Virus record (IMG/VR): IMGVR_UViG_3300047548_000772
Coordinates: 1-64,000 of that record
Strand: one strand, 5' to 3'
Source: a virus
DNA length: 64,000 nt
Shown here: in pieces, positions 10,763 to 61,486 of the stretch
How the letters are laid out: every line of letters begins with the position of its first letter
How positions within the stretch are numbered: position 1 is the first letter of the stretch
The notes under the pieces: model-generated
Database searches by the model: none
The model's input: only the letters and a program-made list of their open reading frames with translations
Told to the model about the DNA's origin: nothing
Translations under genes and position numbers: made by a program

Positions 10763-10927
10763 GTGAAAACAGCACACGCTTGGCAATACAACGGTGTAGC
10801 CACTTGGACAGAACTGATTGAATGGTGTGGTGCTAACTTGTCGCCTCGCTGGCATACCAACTGCCGCGACACTTTTTACTTTTGCTGTGATGAGGACTAC
10901 GTTATATTTTTGTTGAGGTGGGCATGA
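10763..10927 (+). CDS. LRW-family protein, first of the array
   Basis: 54 residues from a GTG at 10763. It shows the family pattern in its shortest form: a W-x-E-L-I-E-W-C helix, an R-W turn, then YFCCDEDYVIFLLRWA at the C-terminus. The codons for the terminal L-R-W (TTG AGG TGG) double as the ribosome site of the next gene, whose ATG overlaps this stop. A GTG start and small size make it easy to miss. Family function unknown. Confidence 0.7.
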   Translation: MKTAHAWQYNGVATWTELIEWCGANLSPRWHTNCRDTFYFCCDEDYVIFLLRWA

Positions 10928-11202
10928 AATTAATTAAACTAGACCGCAGACATCACGGCCACCGCACTTGGACTCATGCCTTGCAATTTACTCAGCAAGA
11001 ATGCCATGTTCGTCACCGCAAATTTGCTCCGTATGTACAAGCCTTTAGTGAAATATACGGTGACGAACACTGGTACGATCATGCTGCAAATTGGCGTGAG
11101 TCTCTTAAATGGAATGAACACTGGCGTTACGATCGGCATCGCCGCAGAATCTACTTTAAAGATCCCAGCATACTAACCTTTGTGGAGTTGAAAATATCAT
11201 GA
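10924..11202 (+). CDS. LRW-family protein, divergent
   Basis: 92 residues from the ATG at 10924 (ATGA overlap). Rich in His, Arg and Trp, with YDRHRRRIYFKDPSILTFVELKIS at the end in place of the usual tail. The R-x-I-Y-F-K-D block aligns with the family; the last residues (LK-I-S) have drifted from LKW. Longest helix region is ECHVRHRKFAPYVQAF. Confidence 0.65.
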   Translation: MKLIKLDRRHHGHRTWTHALQFTQQECHVRHRKFAPYVQAFSEIYGDEHWYDHAANWRESLKWNEHWRYDRHRRRIYFKDPSILTFVELKIS

Positions 11203-11408
11203 CTATGAAATTACCTTGTGGTGGTGTTGCTTACTTTGATGAGGGTAGCGGAATTGGTTATCGTTGTGAGCATTGCATGGCTGTAGTAGGCAGCGTGGGT
11301 ATGCCCCGGTCATGTAAATCAGAAAAGGACAAGTATGACAAAGTGTTGCCTGCGTTAGGCAGCCGAGTTAAATGGAACTACGAAAAAGGATGTGAGGAAA
11401 CTGCATGA
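11199..11408 (+). CDS. small Cys-containing protein
   Basis: 69 residues, ATGA overlap at both ends. CEHC at residues ~24-27 and two single Cys (positions ~8 and ~41) could form a zinc site, and GIGYRCEHCMAVVG resembles a half zinc ribbon. It lacks the LRW tail although it sits inside the array. Function unknown. Confidence 0.6.
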   Translation: MTMKLPCGGVAYFDEGSGIGYRCEHCMAVVGSVGMPRSCKSEKDKYDKVLPALGSRVKWNYEKGCEETA

Positions 11409-11590
11409 GATTCCGCTATAAGCTCGACCCCGAGTCGGATCCGCGAAACAATTTCTACAACATGTTTACATGGTGTCAGCAACGGTTTGGGCAGTCCGGG
11501 TTAAAGAATAGTGCATGGACCTATAAGTACGGAACTTGGCACTTTCGTCGGCGTGAAGATTACGTAATGTTTATCCTGAGGTGGATATGA
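11405..11590 (+). CDS. LRW-family protein
   Basis: 61 residues. A compact clear member: FTWCQQRFGQSG, then AWTYKYGTWHF and REDYVMFILRWI at the C-terminus. The order WC-helix, FG, W-strand, aromatic strand, acidic-D-x-x-MF-x-LRW is the family core. ATGA overlaps at both ends; the terminal CTG AGG TGG carries the ribosome site of the next gene. Confidence 0.75.
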   Translation: MRFRYKLDPESDPRNNFYNMFTWCQQRFGQSGLKNSAWTYKYGTWHFRRREDYVMFILRWI

Positions 11591-11883
11591 AAATCGTAAA
11601 ATTAAATGGTAACTTTAACATTTACAAGACCCACGGGTTCGAAGTAGGTGTAAAGTTCGATCTTTGGGATACCAAAGCACGTAACTTTGAAGCAGTTGTA
11701 GCAGATTGCTTGGGCAAACGAGCCTGGGGCTGGAAATACTATCCTAGTCTGGAGGTCAGAGAAAACTGGGCCGGTGAGTTTGGCAAACGTGCTAGTGGAC
11801 AAACCACACCGTATTGGATTTACTTTCGCCGGGAAAGTATGCTAACATTAGTATTATTATCAATCAATCATCAAAAGGACTAA
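11587..11883 (+). CDS. LRW-family protein, degenerate tail
   Basis: 98 residues from the ATG at 11587 (overlap with previous stop; an in-frame GTG lies two codons upstream). Ends YWIYFRRESMLTLVLLSINHQKD: the Y-W-I-Y-F-R-R-E-S block fits the family but the LRW has become LLS and a short extension follows. Probably a member that lost the exact ending. Confidence 0.65.
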   Translation: MKIVKLNGNFNIYKTHGFEVGVKFDLWDTKARNFEAVVADCLGKRAWGWKYYPSLEVRENWAGEFGKRASGQTTPYWIYFRRESMLTLVLLSINHQKD

Positions 11884-11885
11884 AA

Positions 11886-12398
11886 ATGGTTACTATTAAA
11901 GACTTTATGGAATCGGTTAACTATCGCATTACCGAAGGCAGCGAATACTGCTGGTCGTGCTTTGGGCCATATGCTTACAGACTAGATTCTTGGAATGGCG
12001 AAACCGATGGCTATACTATTAGCCTACTATTTGATACACAATCGCAAGAAGTATATCAAGCCGAAGCATGGGATTATGCTCGTGAGCGTTACTATCGTTG
12101 GCAAAATCCTGCATACATTGATGCGCATGTTGCTGAAGCCAAGTCACGTGACATCGACCCCGACGAAGCCTGCGATGGTGCTAAGTTTATTGACTTGGAA
12201 GTCGCTGCTGACTTCTTAGACAAAGCACTTTCAATTGTACAAGGTGTAGACTACGATACTCGCGTACAAATTGAAGTTGAACTCGACGATGACGTTATCA
12301 ATGCTGCTATGCGTATTGCACACGAGCGTGATATTACTTTTAATCAACTTGTAGAACAAATTATTCAGGCTAAAATCAACGAATTAAAAGGTGTGTAG
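11886..12398 (+). CDS. hypothetical protein with ribbon-helix-helix-like C-terminus
   Basis: 170 residues from the ATG at 11886, preceded by AAAAGGAC. The N-terminal ~110 residues are acidic with WSCFGPYAYRLDSW. Residues ~125-170 (VQIEVELDDDVINAAMRIA then ITFNQLVEQIIQAKI) look like an Arc/MetJ ribbon-helix-helix DNA-binding domain. A DNA-binding regulator is plausible, though the same fold pattern appears in many phage proteins of unknown role. Not part of the LRW family. Confidence 0.7.
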   Translation: MVTIKDFMESVNYRITEGSEYCWSCFGPYAYRLDSWNGETDGYTISLLFDTQSQEVYQAEAWDYARERYYRWQNPAYIDAHVAEAKSRDIDPDEACDGAKFIDLEVAADFLDKALSIVQGVDYDTRVQIEVELDDDVINAAMRIAHERDITFNQLVEQIIQAKINELKGV

Positions 12399-12622
12399 TG
12401 TCATCTATCACCCAACAAGGTCCATTTTTCACTCCGTGGAAGCAGTGGTTTGCCTGGCGTCCTGTGCGCACACTTGGTGGTGAACTAGCGTGGATGCGTA
12501 AGATTTATCGTCGTGCTTACGAAAAGGACTATGTTACACACGACGACTGGACACGTTATCAATATGGTAGTTTGCTTGATGTAATCGCAAACCCAGATCG
12601 CCCACAGGCTTGGTGGTCATGA
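12398..12622 (+). CDS. small hypothetical protein, Trp-rich
   Basis: 74 residues from a GTG that overlaps the previous TAG. Contains PWKQWFAWRPVRTLGGELAW and ends RPQAWWS. Lacks the acidic-DA-F-LRW block, so it is probably not a family member, although its Trp-rich end occupies the same position. ATGA overlap with the next gene. Confidence 0.6.
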   Translation: MSSITQQGPFFTPWKQWFAWRPVRTLGGELAWMRKIYRRAYEKDYVTHDDWTRYQYGSLLDVIANPDRPQAWWS

Positions 12623-12936
12623 GCAAAACTGTACAAATACTGCAAGCAGCAAACCAAGCAGGCAAATCTTTTGGGTTCACTGCTGAACAACAGCAATATC
12701 TTAAAGATGCACTTGAACTGGCTACAATCAAAATGAATCAAAAATTCGAACTCATTGATCAGGGTCCTGTAGACGATGCTCCTTGGTACACAGTTAAAAT
12801 TCGCGACAAAGAAATTTGGTTTTGGCTTACACAGCAAGAAGGTCGGTGGCATCACTATATTTGTGAGCAAACCCGCATTCCACTAGTCGACATGGACGAG
12901 CCCACTTATCTAGCCTTGGTAATGCGTTGGTCATGA
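12619..12936 (+). CDS. LRW-family protein
   Basis: 105 residues. The N-terminal helix region (QILQAANQAGKSFGF) is followed by a strand-rich part, WYTVKIRDKEIWFWL, and the tail DEPTYLALVMRWS. MRW replaces LRW. ATGA overlaps at both ends. Confidence 0.7.
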   Translation: MSKTVQILQAANQAGKSFGFTAEQQQYLKDALELATIKMNQKFELIDQGPVDDAPWYTVKIRDKEIWFWLTQQEGRWHHYICEQTRIPLVDMDEPTYLALVMRWS

Positions 12937-13124
12937 TTCAGAAAACTGCCCTAGCCATAGATCGGCCAACATTTTATATCGATCTGAAACCTGCCTACAG
13001 TATTACTGCGGATATGCAAAAATGGCTAGAGGAAGAAGAAGGTGCAGGCTATTCTTTGGGTGGATGGGGCATTTACTTCTACGATAGCAAAGATGCTACA
13101 ATGTTTGCGTTGAAATGGTTATGA
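12933..13124 (+). CDS. LRW-family protein
   Basis: 63 residues ending GWGIYFYDSKDATMFALKWL, the cleanest form of the signature. The 3' end (GATGCTACAATGTTTGCGTT) is almost identical at the DNA level to the end of the 15587 gene, pointing to recent duplication or gene conversion. ATGA coupling on both sides. Confidence 0.75.
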   Translation: MIQKTALAIDRPTFYIDLKPAYSITADMQKWLEEEEGAGYSLGGWGIYFYDSKDATMFALKWL

Positions 13125-13390
13125 CAATTACTTATAAACGTCCTTTTAGTGATCGCAGTACTCGTGTGCCTATACATAAAGTTTACTACGGCGAGCCCGT
13201 GGTAGAAGCAGATCCATTCCTTGGAATTCCATTTAAACTCTACCCATCGCACGATGCAGCAGCGATCGAATGGTGTCAAGAAAACTGCAGGGCCGCTTGG
13301 TACAGAAGTCCCGGTTATTGTGATCAATGCTTTATTGAATTTGAAGACGATCAAGATGCTATGATGTTTTCTTTAAGGTGGAGCGAATGA
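13121..13390 (+). CDS. LRW-family protein
   Basis: 89 residues. AAAIEWCQENC helix, AWYRSPGYCDQCFIEF strand, tail DDQDAMMFSLRWSE. A CxxC within the strand region is unusual in the family. The stop overlaps the next ATG. Confidence 0.75.
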   Translation: MTITYKRPFSDRSTRVPIHKVYYGEPVVEADPFLGIPFKLYPSHDAAAIEWCQENCRAAWYRSPGYCDQCFIEFEDDQDAMMFSLRWSE

Positions 13391-13596
13391 CTGGTTATAA
13401 CGAAGCGTTTCCTTATATTGTTGCTGATGACTCATGGCTTAGTTATGTAGATGTACAATGGCAAGATATGTGTAAATGGTGCGATACTAACCTGCCCGGT
13501 GAGTGGGAGTACTTCAATGGCGAGTATAGATTTGCTACAGAACGTGCTAAAATGTTATTTTTGTTGAGATGGAGCAATGGACAACTATCTTATTAA
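13387..13596 (+). CDS. LRW-family protein
   Basis: 69 residues. QWQDMCKWCDTNLPGEWEYF, YRFATERAKMLFLLRW and then a short extra tail SNGQLSY. The extension arises because the next gene starts 20 nt before this stop, using GAGATGGAG (the L-R-W codons) as ribosome site. Confidence 0.75.
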   Translation: MTGYNEAFPYIVADDSWLSYVDVQWQDMCKWCDTNLPGEWEYFNGEYRFATERAKMLFLLRWSNGQLSY

Positions 13597-13819
13597 CTGT
13601 GTAAATGCAGTAGGCTGGACGAAATTCAGCCGGCATTGTGCTGACATTTACTCTAACAGCAAGATTGTATCAATTAATTCTGTTTACGATTATCAACTTG
13701 CACTACAGTTTGGCTTTGAATATCCCAGAGTGCGTGTTAAGAGTCCACGCACATATCCGCACTACCTACGGTTTCGTACAGAACAAGAATATCTAGCGTT
13801 TGCCTTGAGGTGGTCATGA
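13577..13819 (+). CDS. LRW-family protein
   Basis: 80 residues. The N-terminal part (NYLINCVNAVGWTKFSRHC) is divergent; the end HYLRFRTEQEYLAFALRWS is typical. Overlaps the previous gene by 20 nt. Terminal TTG AGG TGG TC ATG A couples to the next gene. Confidence 0.75.
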   Translation: MDNYLINCVNAVGWTKFSRHCADIYSNSKIVSINSVYDYQLALQFGFEYPRVRVKSPRTYPHYLRFRTEQEYLAFALRWS

Positions 13820-14031
13820 TCAAAGTTATTCTAAACGATTCAAAGATTCCCTACGCGAATGTCTATGCGCATTTTTCATGGATTGCTGGTTGGGCCAAAG
13901 CCAACTGCCCAAGTTATGTCACATACGAAACCATAGACGTTAGCGACTTTTCTGTGACCAATGATGTGTTAGCAGAATATACATTTGTTGATGAACGTGA
14001 TGCAACCTTGTTTAGGTTGAAATGGTCATGA
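13816..14031 (+). CDS. LRW-family protein
   Basis: 71 residues. WIAGWAKANCPSYVTYE followed by YTFVDERDATLFRLKWS. The helix-strand-strand-helix order and tail are clear. ATGA coupling at both ends, with GGTTGAAATGG as a weaker ribosome site for the next gene. Confidence 0.75.
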   Translation: MIKVILNDSKIPYANVYAHFSWIAGWAKANCPSYVTYETIDVSDFSVTNDVLAEYTFVDERDATLFRLKWS

Positions 14032-14261
14032 TTACATTTAACGTTAGCGAGAACACAGCCTTTGATCGCATGTACCATCATTACTGGTTTGACTCTAAGT
14101 TCATTGAGCAGACTCCGCATTTGACTACGTCAGTGGTTGAAACCTGGATGGACTATACATTGGAAAACTATGGAATTCGCCCGCTGGGTCCAACGGGCAA
14201 TGGCATTTGGGAAGTTGTTGATGAACAAAAATACGCACTGATGCTACTAAAATGGACATAA
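14028..14261 (+). CDS. LRW-family protein
   Basis: 77 residues ending IWEVVDEQKYALMLLKWT. Contains a VVETWMDYTLENYGI helix and a G-N-G-I-W strand. D-A is replaced by Y-A. The next gene starts 10 nt before its stop. Confidence 0.7.
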   Translation: MITFNVSENTAFDRMYHHYWFDSKFIEQTPHLTTSVVETWMDYTLENYGIRPLGPTGNGIWEVVDEQKYALMLLKWT

Positions 14262-14593
14262 AGATTCTATCACATAGAAAACCCAGCAATCGTTCAATGA
14301 TGATGTTTACCAACATCATTAGGTTCCAACCTCGGACCGACGACGATAAGTCTGATTACCCTTATGAGAATTCATTGAATCGTATTTGTTCGTGGATCTC
14401 ACTTAACTTCAAAGAAAACTTTGTTGTTTTAGAAAAAACCAGTAGTCGCATTGCTGGTGGTTGGGCTGACAATAAAAAAGGGTGGCAAGTTCAAAGGTAC
14501 GAAGTAGATCGACGAGAACACTCAACAACCGCAGTTTATGAACTACGCTGCATGGGGCCAGATGCTACACTATTCATGCTAAAGTGGGGCTAA
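14252..14593 (+). CDS. LRW-family protein
   Basis: 113 residues from the ATG at 14252, inside the codons for the previous K-W-T. LNRICSWISLNFKENFVVLEK gives the WC-like helix (S-W instead of W-C), and the tail is CMGPDATLFMLKWG. One of the longer members, with an Arg/Asp-rich middle. Confidence 0.7.
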   Translation: MDIKILSHRKPSNRSMMMFTNIIRFQPRTDDDKSDYPYENSLNRICSWISLNFKENFVVLEKTSSRIAGGWADNKKGWQVQRYEVDRREHSTTAVYELRCMGPDATLFMLKWG

Positions 14594-15012
14594 TGAGTTT
14601 CAACGGAGCTGCATTTTTAAAGGATAAAGTAAGCATGGCCAAGTGGGAAATACATCGCCGATTCGGGACTGTTAAAGCCTTGTGGTGGAAGTTTATGCCC
14701 GGGGTAAAAATCACTGTTAAATGGCCCGCTGGGCTTGTAGAGATCGACGACTCTATGCCACAATGGGATTGGACTATTGGACCAGCGAAGTACGTAGTTG
14801 CCAGTGCCGACCCGAACGATCACTATAGGCCTTGGTTAGAGCAGAATGTAGGTCGTCAAGGTTGGGATTGGGACTGGCGATTAGGTCCAATCACTGGTGC
14901 ACAGGGTAGCGCAAACGGCCCGACTTATCTAACTGGAGACTATTTGGAGATCAAGTTTCGCAAAGCCAAGGCAGAATATGCTACAATGTTTAAACTAATA
15001 TGGCCCGACTAA
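14593..15012 (+). CDS. LRW-family protein, long form
   Basis: 139 residues, TAATG overlap with the preceding gene. Very Trp-rich (WWKFMPGVKITVKWPAG, WDWDWRLGP). The tail KAEYATMFKLIWPD keeps A-T-M-F and W with two extra residues. Length suggests a duplicated or extended strand region. Confidence 0.7.
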   Translation: MSFNGAAFLKDKVSMAKWEIHRRFGTVKALWWKFMPGVKITVKWPAGLVEIDDSMPQWDWTIGPAKYVVASADPNDHYRPWLEQNVGRQGWDWDWRLGPITGAQGSANGPTYLTGDYLEIKFRKAKAEYATMFKLIWPD

Positions 15013-15013
15013 C

Positions 15014-15289
15014 ATGAATATACCTTTAGATGTTTTAGAATCCATGGAACAACAAGCAGCACAAAGTTTGCGTGAAAGCATTGACTTTGAAGTGTTGGCC
15101 GATGTGTTAGTTACTGGATGTGGATGGACCGATGTGGTCATTGATTTGATGTTTGCTGGCACAGATCGAGAAAAAGAAATAACACAATGGGCCGAGGATA
15201 ATTGTGCAGGACTACATAAACATCACTACGGACGTTGGGTATTTGAACTTGCCGCTGACGCTGTGCTGTTTAAACTAAAATGGGCTTAA
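15014..15289 (+). CDS. LRW-family protein
   Basis: 91 residues. Helical N-terminus (LESMEQQAAQSLRESI), then ITQWAEDNCAGLHKHHYGRW and VFELAADAVLFKLKWA. W-A-E-D-N-C parallels W-C in other members. Confidence 0.75.
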   Translation: MNIPLDVLESMEQQAAQSLRESIDFEVLADVLVTGCGWTDVVIDLMFAGTDREKEITQWAEDNCAGLHKHHYGRWVFELAADAVLFKLKWA

Positions 15290-15290
15290 T

Positions 15291-15590
15291 ATGCTGGTAT
15301 ATCGCAACGGACTACTACAATTACCTGATCACGAATATTCAGTATTTGATGGCGAAATTAGATTTAATCATGCCCTACAGTTAGGCGATCGCATACACGT
15401 TCAAGACGGCGTGTATCAACAAACGTTTTCCAGCGATGGACGAACTAATGTTTTTGTCGTTGACACCGAGGTTCAAGAAAACCTTGCTATTACCACGTTG
15501 TTAGAAAACTGTCTCAAGTACAAAGATAATCCTATGGTCATCGATGCACTAGAACGATTACAAGTAGCATTGTCATTGGTGCGAGAATGA
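15291..15590 (+). CDS. hypothetical protein with tail-fibre-like start
   Basis: 99 residues, not an LRW member. LVYRNGLLQLPDHEYSVFDG and LGDRIHVQDGV recall the small beta repeat often found at adhesin or tail-fibre edges. The C-terminal helix (NPMVIDALERLQVALSLV) is similar to the end of the 58569 protein (HPMVADAVASLKDA). Function unknown. Its stop overlaps the next start. Confidence 0.6.
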   Translation: MLVYRNGLLQLPDHEYSVFDGEIRFNHALQLGDRIHVQDGVYQQTFSSDGRTNVFVVDTEVQENLAITTLLENCLKYKDNPMVIDALERLQVALSLVRE

Positions 15591-15799
15591 TCGAAATTAA
15601 GTTTGGCCGGGAGAGGTTTCACGAAGCCCAAGAAATGAGTCTGTGGCTCATTGATCATTATGGTCGTGGTATGTGGTATCGATATGCAATGGTCGAAAAT
15701 AACGATTGCCGGTGGGCACAGGAAAGCGCCTTTGGTATTACTTGGTTTTACTTTCGCAACCAAGAAGATGCTACAATGTTTGCATTGAAGTGGCAATGA
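15587..15799 (+). CDS. LRW-family protein
   Basis: 70 residues. EMSLWLIDHYGRGMWYRYAM, then ITWFYFRNQEDATMFALKWQ: a textbook member. DNA of its last 30 nt nearly matches that of the 12933 gene. ATGA overlaps at both ends. Confidence 0.75.
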   Translation: MIEIKFGRERFHEAQEMSLWLIDHYGRGMWYRYAMVENNDCRWAQESAFGITWFYFRNQEDATMFALKWQ

Positions 15800-16194
15800 G
15801 CATTTGGGCAAAGATCAAAGATCGTTGGCTTACTTGGCGCACAGGCAAGGATGCTGAACAACGTGCATGGGACGCATGGTGCGATGTTAATGTGTGTCGC
15901 CGCGCCCATACAGTAGAAAATTACTACTACAAGTTTAAGCATATTATCGAAGTAGACCCAGCCAAAGTATTTGATACCACATGTCCATTTGGATGGACCT
16001 ATATCAAAGACTTTCAGCAATTTGCATTTCCAAACCGAGAACTAGGCAACAATACAATGTGCGAATGGTTTCGTTGTGTCAAGGACGACTACGATGGACA
16101 ATGGCATATCAATGAAATCGGCGGCTATGACCACCTTTTTGCTGCTACAAATTCCGACGCAGATGCCATAGTTATAGCGTTAAAATACACTTGA
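15796..16194 (+). CDS. LRW-family-like protein, long form
   Basis: 132 residues from the ATG at 15796 (ATGA overlap). AWDAWCDVNVCRRAH gives the WC helix; the tail is NSDADAIVIALKYT, with Y for the final W. Ends this sub-operon: the next gene has its own promoter whose -35 overlaps this stop. Confidence 0.65.
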   Translation: MSIWAKIKDRWLTWRTGKDAEQRAWDAWCDVNVCRRAHTVENYYYKFKHIIEVDPAKVFDTTCPFGWTYIKDFQQFAFPNRELGNNTMCEWFRCVKDDYDGQWHINEIGGYDHLFAATNSDADAIVIALKYT

Positions 16195-16219
16195 CCAGAA
16201 ATACCTATTTTGCTATAAT
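16191..16219 (+). promoter_or_regulatory. sigma70-like promoter giving a leaderless mRNA
   Basis: TTGACC, 17 nt, TATAAT at 16214-16219. The downstream ATG is at 16226, which is about where transcription would begin, so the message should have no leader. The -35 overlaps the stop of the preceding gene. Confidence 0.8.
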
Positions 16220-16225
16220 TATACT

Positions 16226-16453
16226 ATGGCTAAAATAGTACCCGTAAAAGAGTTAGAACCTGCATTTAGTAATGCCATGCGAGCGTTGATCGCCGAATGT
16301 GGTCCAGATATTATGACCATGGCTAATACAATGAACGCTTGGCAGAAACACTACGGGTCGTATATTTTACACGATGAAAATTTTGGTTGGGAAGTTGTAG
16401 CATTTAAATCAGAGCAAGATCAAGTTATGTTTATGTTAAAGTGGGGTAGTTAA
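16226..16453 (+). CDS. LRW-family protein with its own promoter
   Basis: 75 residues. AFSNAMRALIAEC, NAWQKHYGSY, then AFKSEQDQVMFMLKWGS. The only array member directly behind a strong promoter, 6 nt after the -10 box, with no ribosome site possible on a leaderless message. Its stop is followed at once by the GGQ gene. Confidence 0.75.
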   Translation: MAKIVPVKELEPAFSNAMRALIAECGPDIMTMANTMNAWQKHYGSYILHDENFGWEVVAFKSEQDQVMFMLKWGS

Positions 16454-16843
16454 GTGAGCAAGGAAAAGAAACTACTGTTTAGCGTCACTGCTAAAGACTG
16501 CGAATGGTCCTATACCAAGGGCACAGGTGCAGGCGGGCAAAAGCGCAACAAAACCAGCTCGGCTGTTCACTGTATGCATCGCCCCAGTGGTGCTCGTGGC
16601 TATAGCGAAGCAAGCCGGAGCCAAGCAGACAACAAGCGTGATGCGTTTGTTAAGATGGCTAATACTGTGGAGTTTCGTCGCTGGAACCAACTCGAAGCTA
16701 TGAAGAAGATGGGGCAACTTGAAGAACTCGAGCGTAAGCTAGAGGAAGATATGAAGCCCTGGAACCTACGTTACGAAACTAAAGTAGATGGTGTTTGGAC
16801 AGAAACAGCACCCGAGGATATGAGCCGTGATGAAAGCAATTAA
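16454..16843 (+). CDS. GGQ-domain release-factor-like protein
   Basis: 129 residues from a GTG directly after the previous stop. YTKGTGAGGQKRNKTSSAV is the GGQ catalytic loop of class I release factors (GGQ near residue 29), here without codon-recognition domains, as in ArfB/YaeJ (about 140 aa) and PrfH. Such proteins free peptidyl-tRNA from stalled ribosomes. Unlike ArfB, the C-terminal tail (residues ~100-129) is acidic rather than Arg/Lys-rich, so its way of entering the ribosome must differ. Co-transcribed with an LRW-family gene. Its likely partner system is the phage tmRNA at 46 kb. Confidence 0.88.
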   Translation: MSKEKKLLFSVTAKDCEWSYTKGTGAGGQKRNKTSSAVHCMHRPSGARGYSEASRSQADNKRDAFVKMANTVEFRRWNQLEAMKKMGQLEELERKLEEDMKPWNLRYETKVDGVWTETAPEDMSRDESN

Positions 16844-17135
16844 AATTCGACCAAACGATCAACGAGCATTTACTCGCAAGGGTCGACTGACTCCGCAGTA
16901 TAACTTACCTTACCACGCTCGTGGACGGAGCACGTTTTACGATTCGTTGCCGGTTAATCAACGCACCTTGATTAAGATCTTCGGTTACCTACACGGTTAC
17001 GCAGGTCATGGTACTCGGGTTATGCGACAGCGTTGGCGACCAGCAGAACATCGATTCCAAATGCGCCATATGCCAGTTACCTCCCGAAGTACCAGTCAAT
17101 TTGTTAATGAATACACCGCACACAGATGGATGTAA
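16830..17135 (+). CDS. small basic hypothetical protein
   Basis: 101 residues from the ATG at 16830 (a GTG lies one codon upstream), overlapping the GGQ gene by 14 nt. Strongly basic (RPNDQRAFTRKGRLTPQYN, GTRVMRQRWRPAEHRFQMRH). RNA or DNA binding is plausible from charge alone. No family recognised. Confidence 0.6.
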   Translation: MKAIKIRPNDQRAFTRKGRLTPQYNLPYHARGRSTFYDSLPVNQRTLIKIFGYLHGYAGHGTRVMRQRWRPAEHRFQMRHMPVTSRSTSQFVNEYTAHRWM

Positions 17136-17136
17136 A

Positions 17137-17643
17137 ATGGACGCACTAAAAGATCCTAATTTGTCCGCAGACGAAATCAAACTGCTTAATGGATTACAAG
17201 GCATTCAACGCATTGTAATTAACTCGTGTCACGGCGGATTTGGTTTAAGTGAGGCCGCCGTTCGACGTTATTTAGAACTTCGAGGCATTGAAGTTTGGGT
17301 CGAACCACGCACAGAAACATATATGTCGTTGGGACCATTGTATTGGCTTGTGCCGCCGGGGCCGCACAGAGCAACATATGATCCAAGTCCCGAAGCATGG
17401 TCACGCATGACCATGGCCGAACGTCAAGCCAACAACAAAATACTAGACTCGCAGTTATTTTATGCACGTGATATTGCTCGCGACGATCCTTTGTTGGTGC
17501 GTGTCGTTGAAGAACTTGGTTCACAGTCTTATGGACGCCACGCTGAACTCAAAGTAGTAGATGTTCCGTCTGACGTTGAATGGACTATTGAAGAATACGA
17601 TGGCTCGGAGTGGGTGGCGGAGGTACACAGGACTTGGCAATGA
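17137..17643 (+). CDS. hypothetical phage protein with IVINSCHGGF motif
   Basis: 168 residues from the ATG at 17137, one base after the previous stop; longer starts upstream would overlap heavily. RIVINSCHGGFGLSEAAVRRY is a motif seen in many large-phage proteins of unknown function. The rest has a Pro-rich middle and a helical DIARDDPLLVRVVEELG segment. Stop overlaps next ATG. Confidence 0.7.
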   Translation: MDALKDPNLSADEIKLLNGLQGIQRIVINSCHGGFGLSEAAVRRYLELRGIEVWVEPRTETYMSLGPLYWLVPPGPHRATYDPSPEAWSRMTMAERQANNKILDSQLFYARDIARDDPLLVRVVEELGSQSYGRHAELKVVDVPSDVEWTIEEYDGSEWVAEVHRTWQ

Positions 17644-17855
17644 TGGGAGAATTTTTCAAAATGGGCAATTATAGTTTTTGCAGCGACGAACGTGATATAC
17701 GCACTAGCAACAATTGGCTAGAAATTCGCAGTTGGTGCGCTGACAATCTCATTGCCGCAGAACAAATTATGACTGGACCGGGGATGCCTTTTAACGTTTG
17801 GCGGGTCAAAGACGAACATCAACGCACATGGTTTAAACTGCGATGGGAAATTTAG
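17640..17855 (+). CDS. LRW-family protein
   Basis: 71 residues. NNWLEIRSWCADNLIAAEQI, VWRVKDEHQRTWFKLRWEI. D-A is replaced by R-T. Starts in ATGA overlap and runs 13 nt into the next gene. Confidence 0.75.
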   Translation: MMGEFFKMGNYSFCSDERDIRTSNNWLEIRSWCADNLIAAEQIMTGPGMPFNVWRVKDEHQRTWFKLRWEI

Positions 17856-18031
17856 ATTACCTTATTGAAAGTAGATACCGCTGTATCATTCCCACAGGGT
17901 TTGATGCTGCCGAAACACTAGGCAATTGGGCACATGGGTATCCGGAAATGTACACGGTTTACACAACGGGCACAATATCGTATAATAACGAACAAGCACT
18001 CAGTTGGTTTATTCTAAAATGGCCACAATAA
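17843..18031 (+). CDS. LRW-family protein
   Basis: 62 residues from the ATG in the previous gene's R-W codons (CGATGGGA). Shortened core: AAETLGNWAHGYPEMYTVY, then ISYNNEQALSWFILKWPQ. Overlaps both neighbours. Confidence 0.7.
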   Translation: MGNLDYLIESRYRCIIPTGFDAAETLGNWAHGYPEMYTVYTTGTISYNNEQALSWFILKWPQ

Positions 18032-18249
18032 GCAATTACTATTCTGAAAATCTCAGTAATCATACTCGAGTAAAATTCCCAGAGTATAATCCAAGAAAGG
18101 TCTTGGAGTTTTTGCGTGAACACTTTGGCGATAACAATATCCATCAATCGGTTGAACAACGTCGTTGGGTTACTGTTGGGTATAGTGAATACATTTACTT
18201 TCGTGACGAGCGTGATGCTATGTGGTTTAAACTACGGTGGGACAAATGA
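18019..18249 (+). CDS. LRW-family protein
   Basis: 76 residues. VLEFLREHFGDNNIHQSVEQ, RWVTVGYSEYIYFRDERDAM and WFKLRWDK. One of the best examples for a helix, FG turn, two strands, helix layout. Starts inside the previous K-W codons. Confidence 0.75.
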   Translation: MATISNYYSENLSNHTRVKFPEYNPRKVLEFLREHFGDNNIHQSVEQRRWVTVGYSEYIYFRDERDAMWFKLRWDK

Positions 18250-18470
18250 TTGGCATTACTGTCCCGGAAAACATTGATATGTTTCGGCGTGCTTGGACCA
18301 CTGTGGCTGTGCCAAAGTATTGCCCAAACAGAGATACTAGTGTTGCAGAAAGCCAGCGCATATGGCTTGAGGAATTTGGGTGTAGAATGATCTTTGGCAA
18401 AACTGGCTTTTTAACAGCAGAGTTTGACAACGAAGCAGACTATACTGCATTTATATTGAGGTGGTCCTAG
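18246..18470 (+). CDS. LRW-family protein
   Basis: 74 residues. VAESQRIWLEEFGCRMIFG and TAEFDNEADYTAFILRWS. ATGA overlap upstream; its TAG overlaps a GTG start downstream. Confidence 0.75.
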   Translation: MIGITVPENIDMFRRAWTTVAVPKYCPNRDTSVAESQRIWLEEFGCRMIFGKTGFLTAEFDNEADYTAFILRWS

Positions 18471-18727
18471 TGAGCGGAAACAGTCGACAACGTAGACGTA
18501 GTGCCCGTCACTGGCGGCATGTCTATCACATAGAAAATACCAGTCCGCTGGGTATCAAGGCTTGGGCCATTCGTCAGTGGTGTGAACAACAGTATGGTCA
18601 AAAGAATTTTGCTCGTACTTGGGCAATTCAAACACAGTCCGAAGAAAACTGGCCTACACAATTTTTTGTAGCATTTAACAAGGACAAAGATGCGGCTTGG
18701 TTCGTATCTAAATGGTTATCACAATGA
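18470..18727 (+). CDS. LRW-family protein, basic N-terminus
   Basis: 85 residues from a GTG overlapping the previous stop. Arg-rich start (SGNSRQRRRSARHWRHVYHI), WAIRQWCEQQYGQKNFARTW, then FVAFNKDKDAAWFVSKWLSQ. SKW replaces LRW. Confidence 0.7.
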   Translation: MSGNSRQRRRSARHWRHVYHIENTSPLGIKAWAIRQWCEQQYGQKNFARTWAIQTQSEENWPTQFFVAFNKDKDAAWFVSKWLSQ

Positions 18728-18981
18728 AACATCGCTCGCGCACAGTATTTAAAAGCACTAACTTTATTATCGACAAGCGCACAAATAGTAAGGGCAGAGT
18801 TTATTACGAGCTTAGTCTAAACTCCTACGGTAGCATTGCATGGGATCCCGAGCGGTTTGATCTAGTTCGTAATATCGTTGACCCCACACGCAACAGATCC
18901 GGGCACTTTGGCAGATCTTGGAAATATCCTAACCGTGCTGCTGCTGAACGAGACTTGATGTTATTGGAACTAATGTTATGA
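18724..18981 (+). CDS. hypothetical protein in the LRW array
   Basis: 85 residues, ATGA overlap at both ends. Basic start (MKHRSRTVFKSTNFII) and end SWKYPNRAAAERDLMLLELML, which keeps an A-x-x-x-L-x-L pattern but no RW. Could be a diverged family member or an unrelated gene carried in the array. Confidence 0.6.
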   Translation: MKHRSRTVFKSTNFIIDKRTNSKGRVYYELSLNSYGSIAWDPERFDLVRNIVDPTRNRSGHFGRSWKYPNRAAAERDLMLLELML

Positions 18982-19217
18982 ACAACACGGTTAAGTTTAC
19001 TGCTATCCCTATCGATAAATGGTCATTGCAGGATCGTAAGGGGGCCATCACGTGGTTATTGGGATTATATGGGTTTGGTAACATCAAAACTTGGTACCTG
19101 GATACTCAACCAGCAGGGTGCGAAGATTTAATCATGCGCGACGATATCTATTTTATGTTTGCAGCAGCATTTGGAGAAGGTTATGGCACATCCAGAAAAT
19201 ACAATGAGAGCACTTAA
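18978..19217 (+). CDS. LRW-family-like protein, divergent tail
   Basis: 79 residues. GAITWLLGLYGFGNIKTWYL matches the helix, F-G and W of the family; IMRDDIYFMFAAAFGEGYG follows where the tail should be, then a short extension. Probably a diverged member. Confidence 0.6.
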   Translation: MNNTVKFTAIPIDKWSLQDRKGAITWLLGLYGFGNIKTWYLDTQPAGCEDLIMRDDIYFMFAAAFGEGYGTSRKYNEST

Positions 19218-19392
19218 AGATCAGCCACTGTTTGTTGATCGCTGGCAATGTCGCTGGGGACTACACCGTTGGACTCGCTGGTCAGATGGTAAAAAGGATG
19301 CTAGTTCACTGCACTTTACACAGCACCGCACTTGTGTAGACTGTGGCCGTCAAGAAATAAAAAAACTACTAGGTGATTCGAGGCCATTTTAA
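19183..19392 (+). CDS. small Trp/Arg/Cys protein
   Basis: 69 residues from the ATG at 19183 with GGAGAAGG 3-10 nt upstream. WQCRWGLHRWTRW and CVDCGRQEIKKL. One CxxC and a lone Cys could bind a metal. Not an LRW member. Confidence 0.6.
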   Translation: MAHPENTMRALKDQPLFVDRWQCRWGLHRWTRWSDGKKDASSLHFTQHRTCVDCGRQEIKKLLGDSRPF

Positions 19393-19393
19393 C

Positions 19394-19660
19394 ATGGGCT
19401 TACAAATTCCCCGTTATCCCGAGCCTATAGAGATGCGCACAGGCGAAGACTTTTTAAAGTCTTTTAGTTATTGGGCGCAACTTATTGGCGGACGTTTTAG
19501 CGATCGCACTGAACGCAATGAACTGGCCGGGCAGTGGTGTATGGAATACTTTGGCGTGCCCGATACCACTTGGGAAGGCGGCGTTTGGAACTTTAGCAAC
19601 GGTAAGTTTTATTTTAAAAACGAGTCAGACCGTAGCATGTTTGTGTTGAGGTGGTCGTGA
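19394..19660 (+). CDS. LRW-family protein
   Basis: 88 residues. ELAGQWCMEYFGVPDTTWEG, VWNFSNGKFYFKNESDRSMF and VLRWS. Classic core. TTG AGG TGG TC GTG A couples to a GTG-started neighbour. Confidence 0.75.
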   Translation: MGLQIPRYPEPIEMRTGEDFLKSFSYWAQLIGGRFSDRTERNELAGQWCMEYFGVPDTTWEGGVWNFSNGKFYFKNESDRSMFVLRWS

Positions 19661-19926
19661 TAATCGAAACAGATTCCGATCTATACTTTAACATACGCGG
19701 AAAATGGTTACGCGGAAACCCGCTACGTTGGCGCACTGAACTAACAGAGCAACGTGCCGCAGCATTTACCCAGTTTGTCAAAGATAACGGCGGTCAAATT
19801 AACGAGGACCGCATTGATAAAAATAAAATGTACGGCAGCGATTCTCTAGGAATAATCCCAGGCATTAGCACCATCGTGTTTAATGACGAAAAATTATACA
19901 CTATGTTTGTGTTGAGGTATGCATGA
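19657..19926 (+). CDS. LRW-family protein
   Basis: 89 residues from a GTG at 19657 in overlap. AAAFTQFVKDNGGQINED helix, ISTIVFNDEKLYTMFVLRYA tail, with Y-A replacing W-S. Confidence 0.7.
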   Translation: MIIETDSDLYFNIRGKWLRGNPLRWRTELTEQRAAAFTQFVKDNGGQINEDRIDKNKMYGSDSLGIIPGISTIVFNDEKLYTMFVLRYA

Positions 19927-20132
19927 TAGACTTAGAATATAAGCGATTAGAAAAAGGTGGGGCCAACGGTGTTGACCTACAAGCACTAGGACTGTGGCTT
20001 GATGAAAATATGCCTAATCCTCCGTTGCCCGAAGAACAGCGTTGGACTATTGGTCGTAGTGCTGATGGACGTATTGGTATTAGGTTTGCCAATGATCACG
20101 ATGCAACGTTATTTTCATTGAGGTGGGGATGA
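19923..20132 (+). CDS. LRW-family protein
   Basis: 69 residues. LQALGLWLDENMPNPPLPEE, RWTIGRSADGRIGIRFANDH and DATLFSLRWG. ATGA overlaps at both ends. Confidence 0.75.
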   Translation: MIDLEYKRLEKGGANGVDLQALGLWLDENMPNPPLPEEQRWTIGRSADGRIGIRFANDHDATLFSLRWG

Positions 20133-20329
20133 TAGTTGATTTAAACAACTTACCTTATCGACAAGCCAGAGAACTAATCTTATGGTGCGTGGCCAACGAC
20201 ATTGACAAAGAACGTGCCGATAAACTATACTTTGCTTGGTACGAGCCTGCAGGTTCAAAGAAAGAATATACTTGGGAACTAGACATTCCCGAAGAATATC
20301 TAACTTACTTTATGTTGAAGTGGCAATGA
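20129..20329 (+). CDS. LRW-family protein
   Basis: 66 residues. ARELILWCVANDIDKERADK, TWELDIPEEYLTYFMLKWQ. ATGA overlaps at both ends. Confidence 0.75.
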   Translation: MIVDLNNLPYRQARELILWCVANDIDKERADKLYFAWYEPAGSKKEYTWELDIPEEYLTYFMLKWQ

Positions 20330-20580
20330 AACCTCCGTTTACAGCCGTTCGCAAAGTTTATCACGTTCCTACCAACGACTTCAACGACCTTGTCTGGGGG
20401 TTGTGGCACGAGGTTAAACGCATTTCTCATGGTAAAGTTGAAATATTAGGTGGCCCGGGCATGGACGAACTTGATTGGTTGTTCGAAAGTCAAGACGATG
20501 CCATATGGTTTATGTTAAAGTATGGTGGTAAGGATGTTACTAACGAATTTAGGGCATGGCAAAACAATGGGCTGGACTAA
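20326..20580 (+). CDS. LRW-family protein with C-terminal extension
   Basis: 84 residues. LVWGLWHEVKRISHGKVEIL, WLFESQDDAIWFMLKYGGKD, then about 15 further residues. The usual signature is internal here. Starts by ATGA overlap; the next gene starts before its stop. Confidence 0.7.
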   Translation: MKPPFTAVRKVYHVPTNDFNDLVWGLWHEVKRISHGKVEILGGPGMDELDWLFESQDDAIWFMLKYGGKDVTNEFRAWQNNGLD

Positions 20581-20851
20581 CATACAATACGAAACAATTA
20601 ACTACGATCCAAACTTAAAGCCGACTCACAAAAGCATTTGGGACGGTGAGCAGTTTGTTACTCGCACAATTTATCACGTGCCTATTGTAATAGGCGATGC
20701 AAGCGAAAAAGCAAAGTGGCTAAACGAAACATTTGGACACGGACGTACCGGGCGTAACAGTTACGATGAAAATGGTTATTGGGCAGTTGGTCCTACCAGG
20801 ATCAGCATGGAAGAAAAAGTCTACATGATGTATCGACTGCGATGGGGCTAA
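20567..20851 (+). CDS. LRW-family protein
   Basis: 94 residues. AKWLNETFGHGRTGRNSYDE, YWAVGPTRISMEEKVYMMYR and LRWG. Both this and the previous protein contain a similar T-x-x-x-x-Y-H-V-P stretch near the N-terminal third (VRKVYHVPT and TRTIYHVPI), suggesting the two are sister copies. Confidence 0.75.
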   Translation: MGWTNIQYETINYDPNLKPTHKSIWDGEQFVTRTIYHVPIVIGDASEKAKWLNETFGHGRTGRNSYDENGYWAVGPTRISMEEKVYMMYRLRWG

Positions 20852-21117
20852 TTGAACTTCGTGAATGGCAATGGGAAATGATCCTTGCCCGGCTCAAAGA
20901 AGAATATGCTAGTACACCTAGTATGTTTTTAATGCGCGGCAAAATGCGCGACTGTTTGGGTTTTGTTCATCGCCATCATACACAATGGGTCAGCAAAGAA
21001 ACTCGAGGCTACTATCGCGAGTGTGTATGTATTGACTTTTATAACGCTGCTGCTGAATCAATGTTTCGACTAAAATATGCAGACATTCTTAACATGGAGA
21101 ACAAACACGGCTTATAG
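20842..21117 (+). CDS. LRW-family protein, last of the array
   Basis: 91 residues from the ATG in the previous R-W codons. WQWEMILARLKEEYASTPSM, CVCIDFYNAAAESMFRLKYA, then an 11-residue extension. End of the long array; the next gene is 125 nt away and unrelated. Confidence 0.7.
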   Translation: MGLIELREWQWEMILARLKEEYASTPSMFLMRGKMRDCLGFVHRHHTQWVSKETRGYYRECVCIDFYNAAAESMFRLKYADILNMENKHGL

Positions 21118-22459: not shown

Positions 22460-22469
22460 GGAGAACTAG

Positions 22470-23042
22470 ATGAAGCGATATCTACTAACGCTTCTTCTAG
22501 CAGTGACCACTGCGGCTTTTGCCCAACAAGGGCCGCAGGGTTATCTAACTGACACTAATGGTCAGGTCGTTAGAAGTGGCACAGGACTATGCTGGCACAC
22601 AGGTTATTGGACTCCGGCTAATGCAACTGTTGAAGGTTGCGACGGCTATGCCAAAGCTGCGCCAGCGGGTGCCAAAGTTACACTTCAGGCAGACACCTTG
22701 TTTGATTTTAACAAGGCAACACTAAAGCCCGAAGGTAAGACAGCACTTAATAATGTTATTAAGTCAGCACAAGGTACGAAGGTTGAAATCTTTGCAGTTG
22801 TTGGTTACACCGACCGCATCGGTTCAGACAAGTATAACCTTGCACTAAGTGAAAAGCGGGCTGCGGCTGTTAAGGCTTACTTTGTGAGTCAAGGCGTTCC
22901 AGCAGATGCTATTATCACCCAAGGTCGTGGCAAGGCTAACCCAGTTACAGGCGATTCCTGTAAGGGTCAAGTCAGTAGCAAACTAATTAGTTGCTTACAG
23001 CCAGACCGTCGTGCTGTTGTGGAAATCATCGGCACAAAGTAA
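22470..23042 (+). CDS. OmpA-family outer membrane / peptidoglycan-binding protein
   Basis: 190 residues. Signal peptide MKRYLLTLLLAVTTAAFA, a short Trp-containing linker, then an OmpA C-terminal domain (residues ~65-190) with LFDFNKATLKPEGKTAL, VGYTDRIGSDKYNLALSEKR and CLQPDRRAVVEI. This domain binds diaminopimelate in peptidoglycan. There is no N-terminal beta-barrel, so it is likely periplasmic or a lipoprotein-like anchor (no lipobox seen). AAGGAGA upstream; followed by a strong terminator. Forms a two-gene envelope operon with the porin. Confidence 0.92.
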   Translation: MKRYLLTLLLAVTTAAFAQQGPQGYLTDTNGQVVRSGTGLCWHTGYWTPANATVEGCDGYAKAAPAGAKVTLQADTLFDFNKATLKPEGKTALNNVIKSAQGTKVEIFAVVGYTDRIGSDKYNLALSEKRAAAVKAYFVSQGVPADAIITQGRGKANPVTGDSCKGQVSSKLISCLQPDRRAVVEIIGTK

Positions 23043-23061
23043 TTTAAACAATTACTAACAA

Positions 23062-23087
23062 AAAGGCACCTTTAAGGTGCCTTTTTT
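23062..23087 (+). terminator. intrinsic terminator after porin-ompA operon
   Basis: AAAGGCACC, loop TTTAA, GGTGCCTTT followed by a T run. Strong 9 bp hairpin. Confidence 0.92.
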
Positions 23088-23145
23088 ATTGCAACGCAAT
23101 AGCATTGACTAATAGACCTTATTAAAAAATACAATGGAAAATACC

Positions 23146-48713: not shown

Positions 48714-48950
48714 ATGATGTTCAACATCCGAGGTGACTATACTTCCGATGAGTTAGTTAACTGGTTAGAAAAACATATTGGTTATCGAACATTTGAGAAG
48801 CACTCATTAATACAAGGTCCCGGATGGTCAATATCACCAGCAAGTCTTCCAATGGAAGGGTTTGTTAGTGGTATCCGTATTCAGCACGAGTGGGTGGTCA
48901 GGATCGACGACGAAAAAACTGCTGTAATGTTTAAACTAAAATGGATGTAA
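48714..48950 (+). CDS. LRW-family protein outside the array
   Basis: 78 residues starting directly after the phosphatase stop. ELVNWLEKHIGYRTFEKHSL, then WVVRIDDEKTAVMFKLKWM. Shows that the family is dispersed, not confined to one array. Confidence 0.72.
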   Translation: MMFNIRGDYTSDELVNWLEKHIGYRTFEKHSLIQGPGWSISPASLPMEGFVSGIRIQHEWVVRIDDEKTAVMFKLKWM

Positions 48951-57104: not shown

Positions 57105-57263
57105 ATGTTGTACCGAGCAAAGATGCCCGAGGCTTGGGCACGTATGGAGTGGTGCAAAGCTCATTTTGGGCAGCAGAGTTTCAAACGCTGGTGGCGAGAC
57201 CGTGGGTATCTTTGCTTCGTCAACGAAAAGGATTACTTGTTTTACTTGCTGAGGTGGGCATAG
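57105..57263 (+). CDS. LRW-family protein, minimal form
   Basis: 52 residues, the shortest member: MLYRAKMPEAWARMEWCKAH, FGQQSFKRWWRDRGYLCFVN, EKDYLFYLLRWA. It is essentially the bare core helix-FG-strand-strand-helix, useful for defining the domain. Its TAG overlaps a GTG start. Confidence 0.72.
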   Translation: MLYRAKMPEAWARMEWCKAHFGQQSFKRWWRDRGYLCFVNEKDYLFYLLRWA

Positions 57264-57487
57264 TGACAGAACTAGAGATTCCAACATCTAACTGGGCTCA
57301 CGTAGATGCGCCACCAAGTTGGTGGGAAAACTTTTTCTATAGTTGCGGCGACTGGCAAGAAGTTCAACGTGTGTTAAAAGAAGATTGGAATGCTGAGGCA
57401 GTTCCTAGTTCTAGACTGGGAGAAGTTGGAACCATTGTATTCGAAAATGAGCAGGATGCTACTATGTTTATGTTGAGGTGGACATGA
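57263..57487 (+). CDS. LRW-family protein
   Basis: 74 residues from a GTG in overlap. VQRVLKEDWNAEAVPSSRLG, TIVFENEQDATMFMLRWT. ATGA coupling downstream with TTG AGG TGG as ribosome site. Confidence 0.75.
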   Translation: MTELEIPTSNWAHVDAPPSWWENFFYSCGDWQEVQRVLKEDWNAEAVPSSRLGEVGTIVFENEQDATMFMLRWT

Positions 57488-57681
57488 TTACTGTGAACAC
57501 TTATCCAAAAATCCAAACGTCCCACGATATGATTCCAGTAAACGAATGGCTAAGACACAACGCTACCAGTAAGTGGAACTGGCGATCCTCAAAAGAGTGG
57601 TATCCTGGGTGGGGTCATCCTATGTTGTTAGATTTTGAGGACGAAAACGATGCAGTATTGTTTGCATTGAGGTGGTTGTGA
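57484..57681 (+). CDS. LRW-family protein
   Basis: 65 residues. PVNEWLRHNATSKWNWRSSK, LLDFEDENDAVLFALRWL. Start and stop overlap neighbours. Confidence 0.75.
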   Translation: MITVNTYPKIQTSHDMIPVNEWLRHNATSKWNWRSSKEWYPGWGHPMLLDFEDENDAVLFALRWL

Positions 57682-57947
57682 TGATAGAAGCCTGGACATT
57701 TATTGACGGTATGAAGGTTAGTGTTCCGCTAGATCGTTGCGATGCTGTTAGGTATGGCTGGCATCTGGGCACAGAGTTTAGACGCTGGCACCCTTTAGTA
57801 GATGTGGCGGCAGAAATCCTTAGAGAAAATTCAATTCGTGATTGGTGCCGCAACACCGTTGGACAAAATTGCTACAAAACATTTCACGATAGCGTATATT
57901 TTTATCGTGAAGCAGATGCAGTACTTTGCAAGTTGAGGTGGTCATAA
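57681..57947 (+). CDS. LRW-family protein
   Basis: 88 residues, TGATG overlap. SIRDWCRNTVGQNCYKTFHD, SVYFYREADAVLCKLRWS. Cys replaces Phe in the tail. Its stop overlaps the next start. Confidence 0.75.
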   Translation: MIEAWTFIDGMKVSVPLDRCDAVRYGWHLGTEFRRWHPLVDVAAEILRENSIRDWCRNTVGQNCYKTFHDSVYFYREADAVLCKLRWS

Positions 57948-60295: not shown

Positions 60296-60978
60296 AAGTT
60301 AAACTAATCAACTCTTCGGCACCATCTGAAGAACTGCTAGCACAGGGCATTGACAATGCGCAAGAACTAATTGCGTTTTGTGCCCGTGTTAGCAATCCTA
60401 GCAATCAACTTAACACAGAAACCAGTGAAAAGTTAATTCGTTATCTAATCAAGCACAAGCACTGGAGTCCTTTAGAAATGGTTAGTGCTTGTTTAGAAAT
60501 CGAAACTACACGTGATATTGCTCGTCAAATTCTGCGCCATCGTAGTTTTAGTTTCCAAGAGTTTAGTCAGCGTTATGCCGACCCAACCAAGGATCTAAAC
60601 TTTGAAATTCGCGAAACACGACTACAGGATACTAAGAATCGTCAAAACTCAGTAGAGTTAGATGTTAGTGTTCCTGAAAATCGCGAACTTGTTCGTATTT
60701 GGGAAGAAAAGCAACATGCGGTTATCAAAGCCGCTCGCGATGCATATGAGTGGGCAGTAACAAATAGCATTGCCAAGGAACAAGCCCGTGCTGTATTGCC
60801 CGAAGGTTTAATGGGCAGTCGTTTGTATATGAATGGCACACTACGTTCGTGGATTCACTTTATCGAGTTACGTAGTGCCAACGGTACACAAAAAGAGCAT
60901 CAAGAAGTTGCTATTGCGTGTGCTCGTGCTATTGCTAACATCTTTCCAATGGCGGATGAGTTTGTAACCACAAACTAA
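60292..60978 (+). CDS. thyX: flavin-dependent thymidylate synthase
   Basis: 228 residues. ILRHRSFSFQEFSQRYADP carries the ThyX motif R-H-R-x7-S-x-R (near residue 82), and NGTLRSWIHFIELRS and TQKEHQEVA the substrate-binding end. Makes dTMP from dUMP using FAD and methylene-tetrahydrofolate. Common in large phages to supply thymidine. ATGA overlap on the 5' side, 1 nt overlap on the 3' side. Confidence 0.96.
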   Translation: MKVKLINSSAPSEELLAQGIDNAQELIAFCARVSNPSNQLNTETSEKLIRYLIKHKHWSPLEMVSACLEIETTRDIARQILRHRSFSFQEFSQRYADPTKDLNFEIRETRLQDTKNRQNSVELDVSVPENRELVRIWEEKQHAVIKAARDAYEWAVTNSIAKEQARAVLPEGLMGSRLYMNGTLRSWIHFIELRSANGTQKEHQEVAIACARAIANIFPMADEFVTTN

Positions 60979-61211
60979 TGCAACGCATCGTATTTGCTAC
61001 ATTTAATTTAGGCGACGTAGAGGATCCAGAAATCTACGCCGCCTTTCCTATTTACAAATTCAAAGAAACACCCAAAGGCCAGTGGATGATGGAAAACTGC
61101 AAGGATCCGGTTTATGATATTCACATGTGTTACGATACATACGGGTATCGTGTTGTTATCCACGGCAAAGTAGAAGATCAACTTGCTACAGAGTTTTACC
61201 TACGATGGTAG
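60978..61211 (+). CDS. LRW-family protein ending exactly at W
   Basis: 77 residues. Acidic N-terminal half, then YGYRVVIHGKVEDQLATEFY and LRW followed by TAG. Next gene starts inside its R-W codons. Confidence 0.68.
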   Translation: MQRIVFATFNLGDVEDPEIYAAFPIYKFKETPKGQWMMENCKDPVYDIHMCYDTYGYRVVIHGKVEDQLATEFYLRW

Positions 61212-61486
61212 AACCACTTCAAGCCTTGGTTTGGCGACTACCCGGTGGTATGGCTGCTAACTTTTACGCACATAGGCTTAACCAAGAAGTAGGACAATGG
61301 GCCGAAACGCACCATGTTGATCCAAAATTGCTTAAATGGACTAACGTCAATTGGTATCGAGGCCAAAAAGCCCACTTTAGAATGTTGACTATGCCCAAGA
61401 AGTATGCTACAATATTTCTATTATCGTGGACTGGCAAGCCGCCAACTTACATAGACGAATACGTACATCCGGATGAACCAAATTAA
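61205..61486 (+). CDS. LRW-family protein with C-terminal extension
   Basis: 93 residues from ATG 61205. EVGQWAETHHVDPKLLKWTN, KKYATIFLLSWTGKPPTYID. LSW replaces LRW and about 17 residues follow. Overlaps the SGNH gene by 14 nt. Confidence 0.68.
   Translation: MVEPLQALVWRLPGGMAANFYAHRLNQEVGQWAETHHVDPKLLKWTNVNWYRGQKAHFRMLTMPKKYATIFLLSWTGKPPTYIDEYVHPDEPN

Follow-up and report, generated by a model that had tools for sequence, protein, structure and literature searches.

Small LRW-ended proteins of a T4-like phage: a tandem family whose gene ends appear to double as ribosome-binding sites

Introduction

The window analysed here, bases 1-64000 of the 192,074-base IMG/VR virus record IMGVR_UViG_3300047548_000772, belongs to a T4-like phage whose major capsid protein, gp23, is encoded at record positions 136892-137914 (Pfam Gp23 E 8e-101). 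Between positions 10763 and 21117 it holds a run of very small genes, many of whose products end in Leu-Arg-Trp (LRW), and which the initial annotation took for a large tandem family that joins variable N-terminal heads to a common docking tail. The locus raises the question of why one phage should carry so many small proteins with the same ending, and of what has kept that ending constant.

Results

A seed alignment of eight window members led to at least 63 IMG/VR loci, and an iterated profile search over these loci and the window collected 715 members, which further scans raised to about 800 unique relatives (786 without the window). The loci were picked because the family is present in them, and the counts are therefore not a measure of prevalence. 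For a non-circular test, a hidden Markov model (HMM) was trained on 614 relatives from contigs of other phages, with zero window sequences, and run against the 513 open reading frames (ORFs) of the window. It detected 34 ORFs at E<0.02 and 28 at E<1e-3 (best 6e-17), confirming the large tandem family. Twenty-six of the 34 lie in 10763-21117, all on the plus strand, and the remainder end at 48950, 55766, 57263, 57487, 57681, 57947, 61211 and 61486; no minus-strand window ORF scored at E<1, and the other 128 kb of the 192-kb record contain zero additional members. Every outlying copy named earlier was recovered, those at 55536 (E 0.017) and 61205 (61127-61486, E 0.018) being weak, while within the interval some genes proved to be non-family (16454-16843 and 11886-12398). 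All gene starts are predictions, and those first proposed often lay too far upstream, the usual true start being the ATG of an ATGA overlap; leaders reading MVM or MDM are the preceding gene's LRW codons in another frame.

The relatives come from uncultivated phages. Searches of isolate phages with tblastn gave no relevant match, a scan of bacterial and archaeal genomes with the KDRYH type gave no relative, and no array of this kind was found described in the literature. AlphaFold, given 82 homologues, modelled the protein of 15587-15799 as b-a-b-b-a (b, strand; a, helix) with a predicted local distance difference test (pLDDT) score of 94.9, and the C-terminus forms the last helix of the folded domain in this model. 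The fold agrees with the earlier suggestion of an ending like half of a ferredoxin-like or RNA-recognition-motif (RRM) fold. Membership of the RRM domain itself was rejected, as this needs babbab with RNP1 and RNP2, and Pfam RRM has zero matches in 82 members. A PDB structure search yielded no significant relative (best E 0.81, TM score 0.42), and useful scores in BFVD came only from uncharacterised uncultured Caudovirales proteins (best E 9e-5). No convincing match to the body came from Pfam, PHROGs, NCBIfam, PADLOC or PDB sequences, and in the first three only the gp23 heads described below match, so that the description of a family without assigned function holds across these resources.

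The DNA of the gene ends is strikingly uniform, reading TTG AGG TGG TCA TGA, and the ATG of the following gene overlaps that stop codon. Normally spaced, the GAGGTG of this string forms a duplex with the anti-Shine-Dalgarno sequence of the 16S rRNA, with energies of about -8.8 to -10.1 kcal/mol at the junctions. Where a gene ended at most one residue past LRW and its stop overlapped the next start, it was counted as coupled; the tail arginine codon is AGG in 82% (ATGA), 85% (GTGA) and 92% (TRATG) of coupled genes versus 13% of uncoupled genes, and the background share of AGG among arginine codons is 6.6% in long ORFs and 7.7% inside family genes. As any arginine codon would do under pure protein conservation, yet AGG follows coupling, these counts point to pressure from an RNA site, with the LRW codons (TTG AGG TGG) doubling as the Shine-Dalgarno sequence of the next overlapping gene. 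Even the choice of amino acid is influenced, because the excess of arginine over lysine at the tail tracks coupling (297:63 in ATGA-coupled genes, 53:64 in uncoupled ones). Much of the conservation of the tail arginine stems from the ribosome-binding site of the next gene; the tryptophan and the F-x-L pattern, kept in uncoupled genes, belong to the fold.

These results bear directly on the proposal that the ending is a docking signal for one shared partner. The tryptophan is kept even in the uncoupled, solitary member at 48714-48950, which speaks for such a role, but the ending is the last helix of the modelled domain, the arginine and its codon track coupling and not protein context, and the zinc protein at 57947-58249, put forward as a co-occurring partner, has no relative in any LRW-bearing locus tested. 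On the counts of codon against coupling, docking was discarded as the chief reason why LRW is conserved, and we regard a docking signal as very unlikely.

Relatives cluster into orthogroups, several of which are found in 20-38 loci, with roughly one member in each phage. When loci were compared, neighbouring LRW orthologues had stayed adjacent in 23% of cases versus 76% for other genes (30% versus 68% at 50-65% identity, and 36% versus 82% at 65-80% identity); the orthogroups are old, and their order has become scrambled between phages. Adjacency was used for this purpose because the right-hand ends of alignments (high-scoring segment pairs) were insufficiently specific: they fall at LRW stops in 51% versus 4%, and at the stops of other genes in 24% versus 3%, a similar relative excess, and were dropped as evidence of recombination at unit boundaries. 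N-termini differ among paralogues within the window, as first described, but most large orthogroups are conserved across phages. Strong selection for diversity, also proposed, holds in that diversity arises via reassortment and fails in that the orthogroups are old and the heads are under purifying selection.

In some relatives the heads resemble pieces of core phage proteins, which bears out in an unexpected way the initial idea of a mosaic. Heads matching segment A of gp23 (positions ~52-98 of a profile of the phages' own gp23) occur in orthogroups 2 and 3, and heads matching segment B (~151-218) in orthogroup 1; array phages often have both. Matches reach E 2.7e-12 to Pfam Gp23 and 5.4e-13 to the PHROG major head protein, with hhalign E values of 9e-8 (orthogroup 1) and 7.8e-8. 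At E<0.01, 22 of 814 heads match gp23 versus 0 in 8140 shuffles, and array genes of nine other phages exceed the curated PF07068 cut-off (24.4 bits) over profile positions ~2-60 or 129-190. Several of the same genomes encode full-length gp23 elsewhere. The gp23-headed orthogroups span 20-31 loci, and orthogroups 1-3 hold ~90 relatives, some of which have lost the head or carry no clear one. Judged by these alignments, some heads derive from gp23. Origins in DnaB and NrdA are likely for others: P-loop heads match the phages' DnaB-like helicase (best E 1.3e-5; parent confirmed as DnaB_C), and NrdA-like heads read SNLCKEI where the phages' own NrdA, at the ribonucleotide reductase active site, reads SNLCTEI. 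At E<0.1 these number six and four, respectively, in 814 heads versus 0 in 8140 shuffles, and individually the matches are weak in Pfam and PHROGs. A PolB profile did not rise above the shuffled control in the same comparison; PolB motif A heads number three versus 0.05 expected for a motif chosen after looking, and a head resembling the gp23 C-terminal CPYIP is a weak lead with a motif picked in the same way. Recognition is biased throughout, in that only conserved pieces of core genes are detectable.

Separately, array genes of two large phages (L161 and L162, 107-residue frames) have heads, RKMQLNSVYGTNLCKEIMAP and RKIQLNSIYGLNLCKEIVAP, that by eye join PolB motif-B-like and NrdA-like pieces.

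Heads and bodies have recombined. In the alignment of one subfamily (kykFSRAKWY), gp23-A heads occur in some phages and P-loop or SNLC heads in others. Between L135 and L136 the head is 67% identical with a proportion of synonymous differences (pS) of 0.76 and the body 96% identical with pS 0.25, and L143/L141 show the reverse discordance; the approximate Fisher tests (1e-5 to 6e-5) are post hoc. The ratio of non-synonymous to synonymous rates (dN/dS) is ~0.12-0.16 for gp23 heads where dS is estimable and ~0.24-0.5 for P-loop heads, and in gp23 heads pS is 0.48-0.85 with non-synonymous differences (pN) at 0.10-0.25. These values indicate purifying selection on the protein with synonymous sites free. 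In a model of a gp23-headed chimera the body is confident (pLDDT ~90) and the head is not (~47-56), so that the gp23 head probably extends flexibly from the body.

Inteins and introns typically insert at P-loop and NrdA active-site motifs. The heads could accordingly be relics of sites cut by homing endonucleases, or decoys at the DNA level, to which the P-loop, SNLCxEI and by-eye PolB motifs would fit. Since synonymous sites in gp23 heads vary freely while the protein is kept, selection acts on protein and not DNA, and the decoy explanation is rejected as largely refuted and highly improbable.

Two further explanations concern what the heads do. One is a gene nursery, a recombination-prone operon that captures gene fragments as N-termini, whose products would have separate small takeover roles and heads without common purpose. 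It accommodates high reassortment and fragments from different genes and positions, and, as only conserved pieces are recognisable, ascertainment bias may explain why key motifs seem to have been chosen. The gp23 heads, however, recur across the loci of their orthogroups at low dN/dS, so that they are not passive debris, and we consider this explanation somewhat doubtful. The other casts the proteins as assembly or regulatory partners, with gp23, DnaB and NrdA heads filling the corresponding interface in the parent complex while the body modulates assembly or activity. That the heads resemble the phage's own proteins, are under purifying selection and often pair A with B in one phage would suit such partners, but most units are without such a head, the heads span short pieces only, and head-body recombination with unit reshuffling would be unusual for dedicated core-assembly factors, leaving this account unlikely.

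The window features are listed in Table 1. The gene after 18246-18470 starts at GTG 18470, because TCCTAGTG comes after AGGTGG, and the head of 12619-12936 (AANQAGKS) may be, by eye, a decayed P-loop.

Table 1. LRW-family features of the window (E values from the HMM built without window sequences, unless stated otherwise).
Feature	Position	Strand	Evidence
Tandem array	10763..21117	+	26 members at E<0.02; mostly ATGA/GTGA/TAATG overlaps; outside-only HMM and coupling table
LRW-domain protein	10763..10927	+	E 3.6e-11; end TTG AGG TGG GCA TGA, overlapped by next start
LRW-domain protein, best window member	11405..11590	+	E 6.4e-17
LRW-ended protein, kin to P-loop-headed proteins of other phages	12619..12936	+	Search seed; relatives in 9 loci including L063/L064
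LRW-domain protein	12933..13124	+	E 5.3e-12
LRW-domain protein; uncertain start, probably ATG 13121	13115..13390	+	E 3.8e-14
LRW-domain protein	13387..13596	+	E 3.5e-12
LRW-domain protein	13816..14031	+	E 2.3e-8
LRW-domain protein, SADPNDHYRPWLE orthogroup (orthogroup 23)	14593..15012	+	E 5e-6
LRW-domain protein, orthogroup 1 (gp23 segment B head, decayed here)	15014..15289	+	E 8e-9; orthogroup 1 versus gp23 hhalign E 9e-8
LRW-domain protein, KDRYH type, the orthogroup found most widely (38 loci)	15587..15799	+	E 5e-15; AlphaFold pLDDT 94.9
LRW-domain protein, AGGTGG then TCCTAGTG	18246..18470	+	E 3.9e-8
Four consecutive LRW-domain proteins (19394-19660, 19657-19926, 19923-20132, 20129-20329)	19394..20329	+	Each start overlaps preceding stop
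Solitary LRW-domain protein, uncoupled	48714..48950	+	E 6.8e-10; LKW = CTA AAA TGG, without Shine-Dalgarno
Second coupled array, four genes (57105-57263, 57263-57487, 57484-57681, 57681-57947)	57105..57947	+	E 6e-12 to 3e-10; AGG TGG throughout, following start overlapping
Two distant members, 60978-61211 (LGDVEDPEIYAA type) and 61127-61486	60978..61486	+	E 2e-3, 1.8e-2

Among neighbouring genes, the 170-residue non-family protein at 11886-12398, with a weak C-terminal Arc/HicB-like match, is a recurring companion with relatives in 15 loci (best ~50-55% identity). It is more worth study than the Cys-rich zinc protein at 57947-58249 (phrog_32948, E 3e-16), which is translationally coupled to the preceding LRW gene. 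Also inside the array, 16454-16843 encodes an RF-1/GGQ-domain protein (PF00472, E 2e-14) with a relative in L032, possibly a ribosome-rescue or release-factor-like gene. A host-like run at 21242-24443 comprises a Gram-negative porin (PF13609, E 2e-30), an OmpA domain protein, an AhpC peroxiredoxin and a CMD/AhpD-type protein; for a phage to carry genes for a porin and for oxidative stress points to a Gram-negative host, perhaps of the Burkholderiales. The window also carries 32 tRNA genes and a tmRNA gene (46123-46481). In L073, another array phage, Hsp20-like, ClpS-like and PstS-like genes, identified by eye, adjoin the array at 510-953, 1006-1320 and 2200-3240.

Discussion

Our favoured reading takes the array as a polycistron of modular units for small accessory proteins, which would serve host takeover or counter host defences and whose mimic heads would target factors of the host; we advance it as a tentative possibility, since its anti-defence step is an analogy. 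Each unit encodes one small b-a-b-b-a domain, and in coupled genes the ends L-R-W-S/A (TTG AGG TGG TCA TGA) supply both the Shine-Dalgarno sequence and the start/stop overlap of the next unit. Because each unit would receive its start from the preceding unit and supply the next ribosome-binding site, units could be lost, gained and reordered without breaking expression. The body would act as a stable carrier, while the heads would imitate conserved phage proteins and engage whatever host factors recognise them.

Heads of the gp23 A type appear to overlap the presumed position of the Gol region. The coincidence also draws on a study that puts Gol within the first quarter of gp23, in its most conserved region (PMC3014915). 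It is through Gol that T4 gp23 contacts EF-Tu and switches on Lit (PMC3014915), and other defences respond to capsid proteins as triggers (PMC9712102); by analogy, a gp23-like head on a separate protein could compete for factors of this kind.

Several points weigh against this reading beyond its dependence on analogy. No family member has a known function, and most heads bear no recognisable likeness to other proteins. The tie to gp23 is confined to orthogroups 1-3, so that mimicry is not the role of the whole family, and in the window 15014-15289 is the only gene of a gp23-headed orthogroup, its head being decayed and giving no direct gp23 match as a single sequence. The absence of a PADLOC match says little either way, as that library holds defence and not anti-defence proteins. 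A bolder version of the favoured reading, in which the array is a new phage arsenal, a self-coupling and reorderable polycistron of one-domain carriers displaying pieces of the phage's own most conserved proteins to those host factors by which such proteins are detected or exploited, is in our judgement rather unlikely.

The analysis brings to light a protein family, very large and as yet without a name, in large uncultivated phages. The ending of one protein is at the same time the ribosome-binding site of the next gene, which would turn genes into interchangeable units. If the heads are mimics, phages would be countering their hosts with pieces taken from their own core proteins, and the motifs retained would point to what hosts recognise.

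Among known systems, the uncultured Caudovirales proteins in BFVD (e.g. A0A6J5L980) have the same fold and are likely of the same family (E 9e-5, TM score 0.81), with no name, function or array described for them. RRM and ferredoxin-like folds share the b-a-b-b-a order, but the LRW fold is without the last strand and its PDB match is non-significant. With the Gol/Lit/EF-Tu exclusion of T4 (PMC3014915) the likeness lies in the heads of orthogroups 2-3, which match the first-quarter gp23 segment, and a PDB profile match places the head on T4 gp23 residues 95-132 (E 0.44-0.48, weak alone); Gol is part of the capsid protein in T4, whereas here the segment heads a separate small protein. Finally, start/stop overlaps with internal Shine-Dalgarno sequences are a general phenomenon (PMC6728339), and the array shares with such ATGA-overlap translational coupling both the overlap and the Shine-Dalgarno sequence within the upstream gene. 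What is unusual is the reuse of an intragenic Shine-Dalgarno sequence by one family, a single fixed end serving many successive genes and, to judge from the codon counts, shaping the C-terminal residues of their products.

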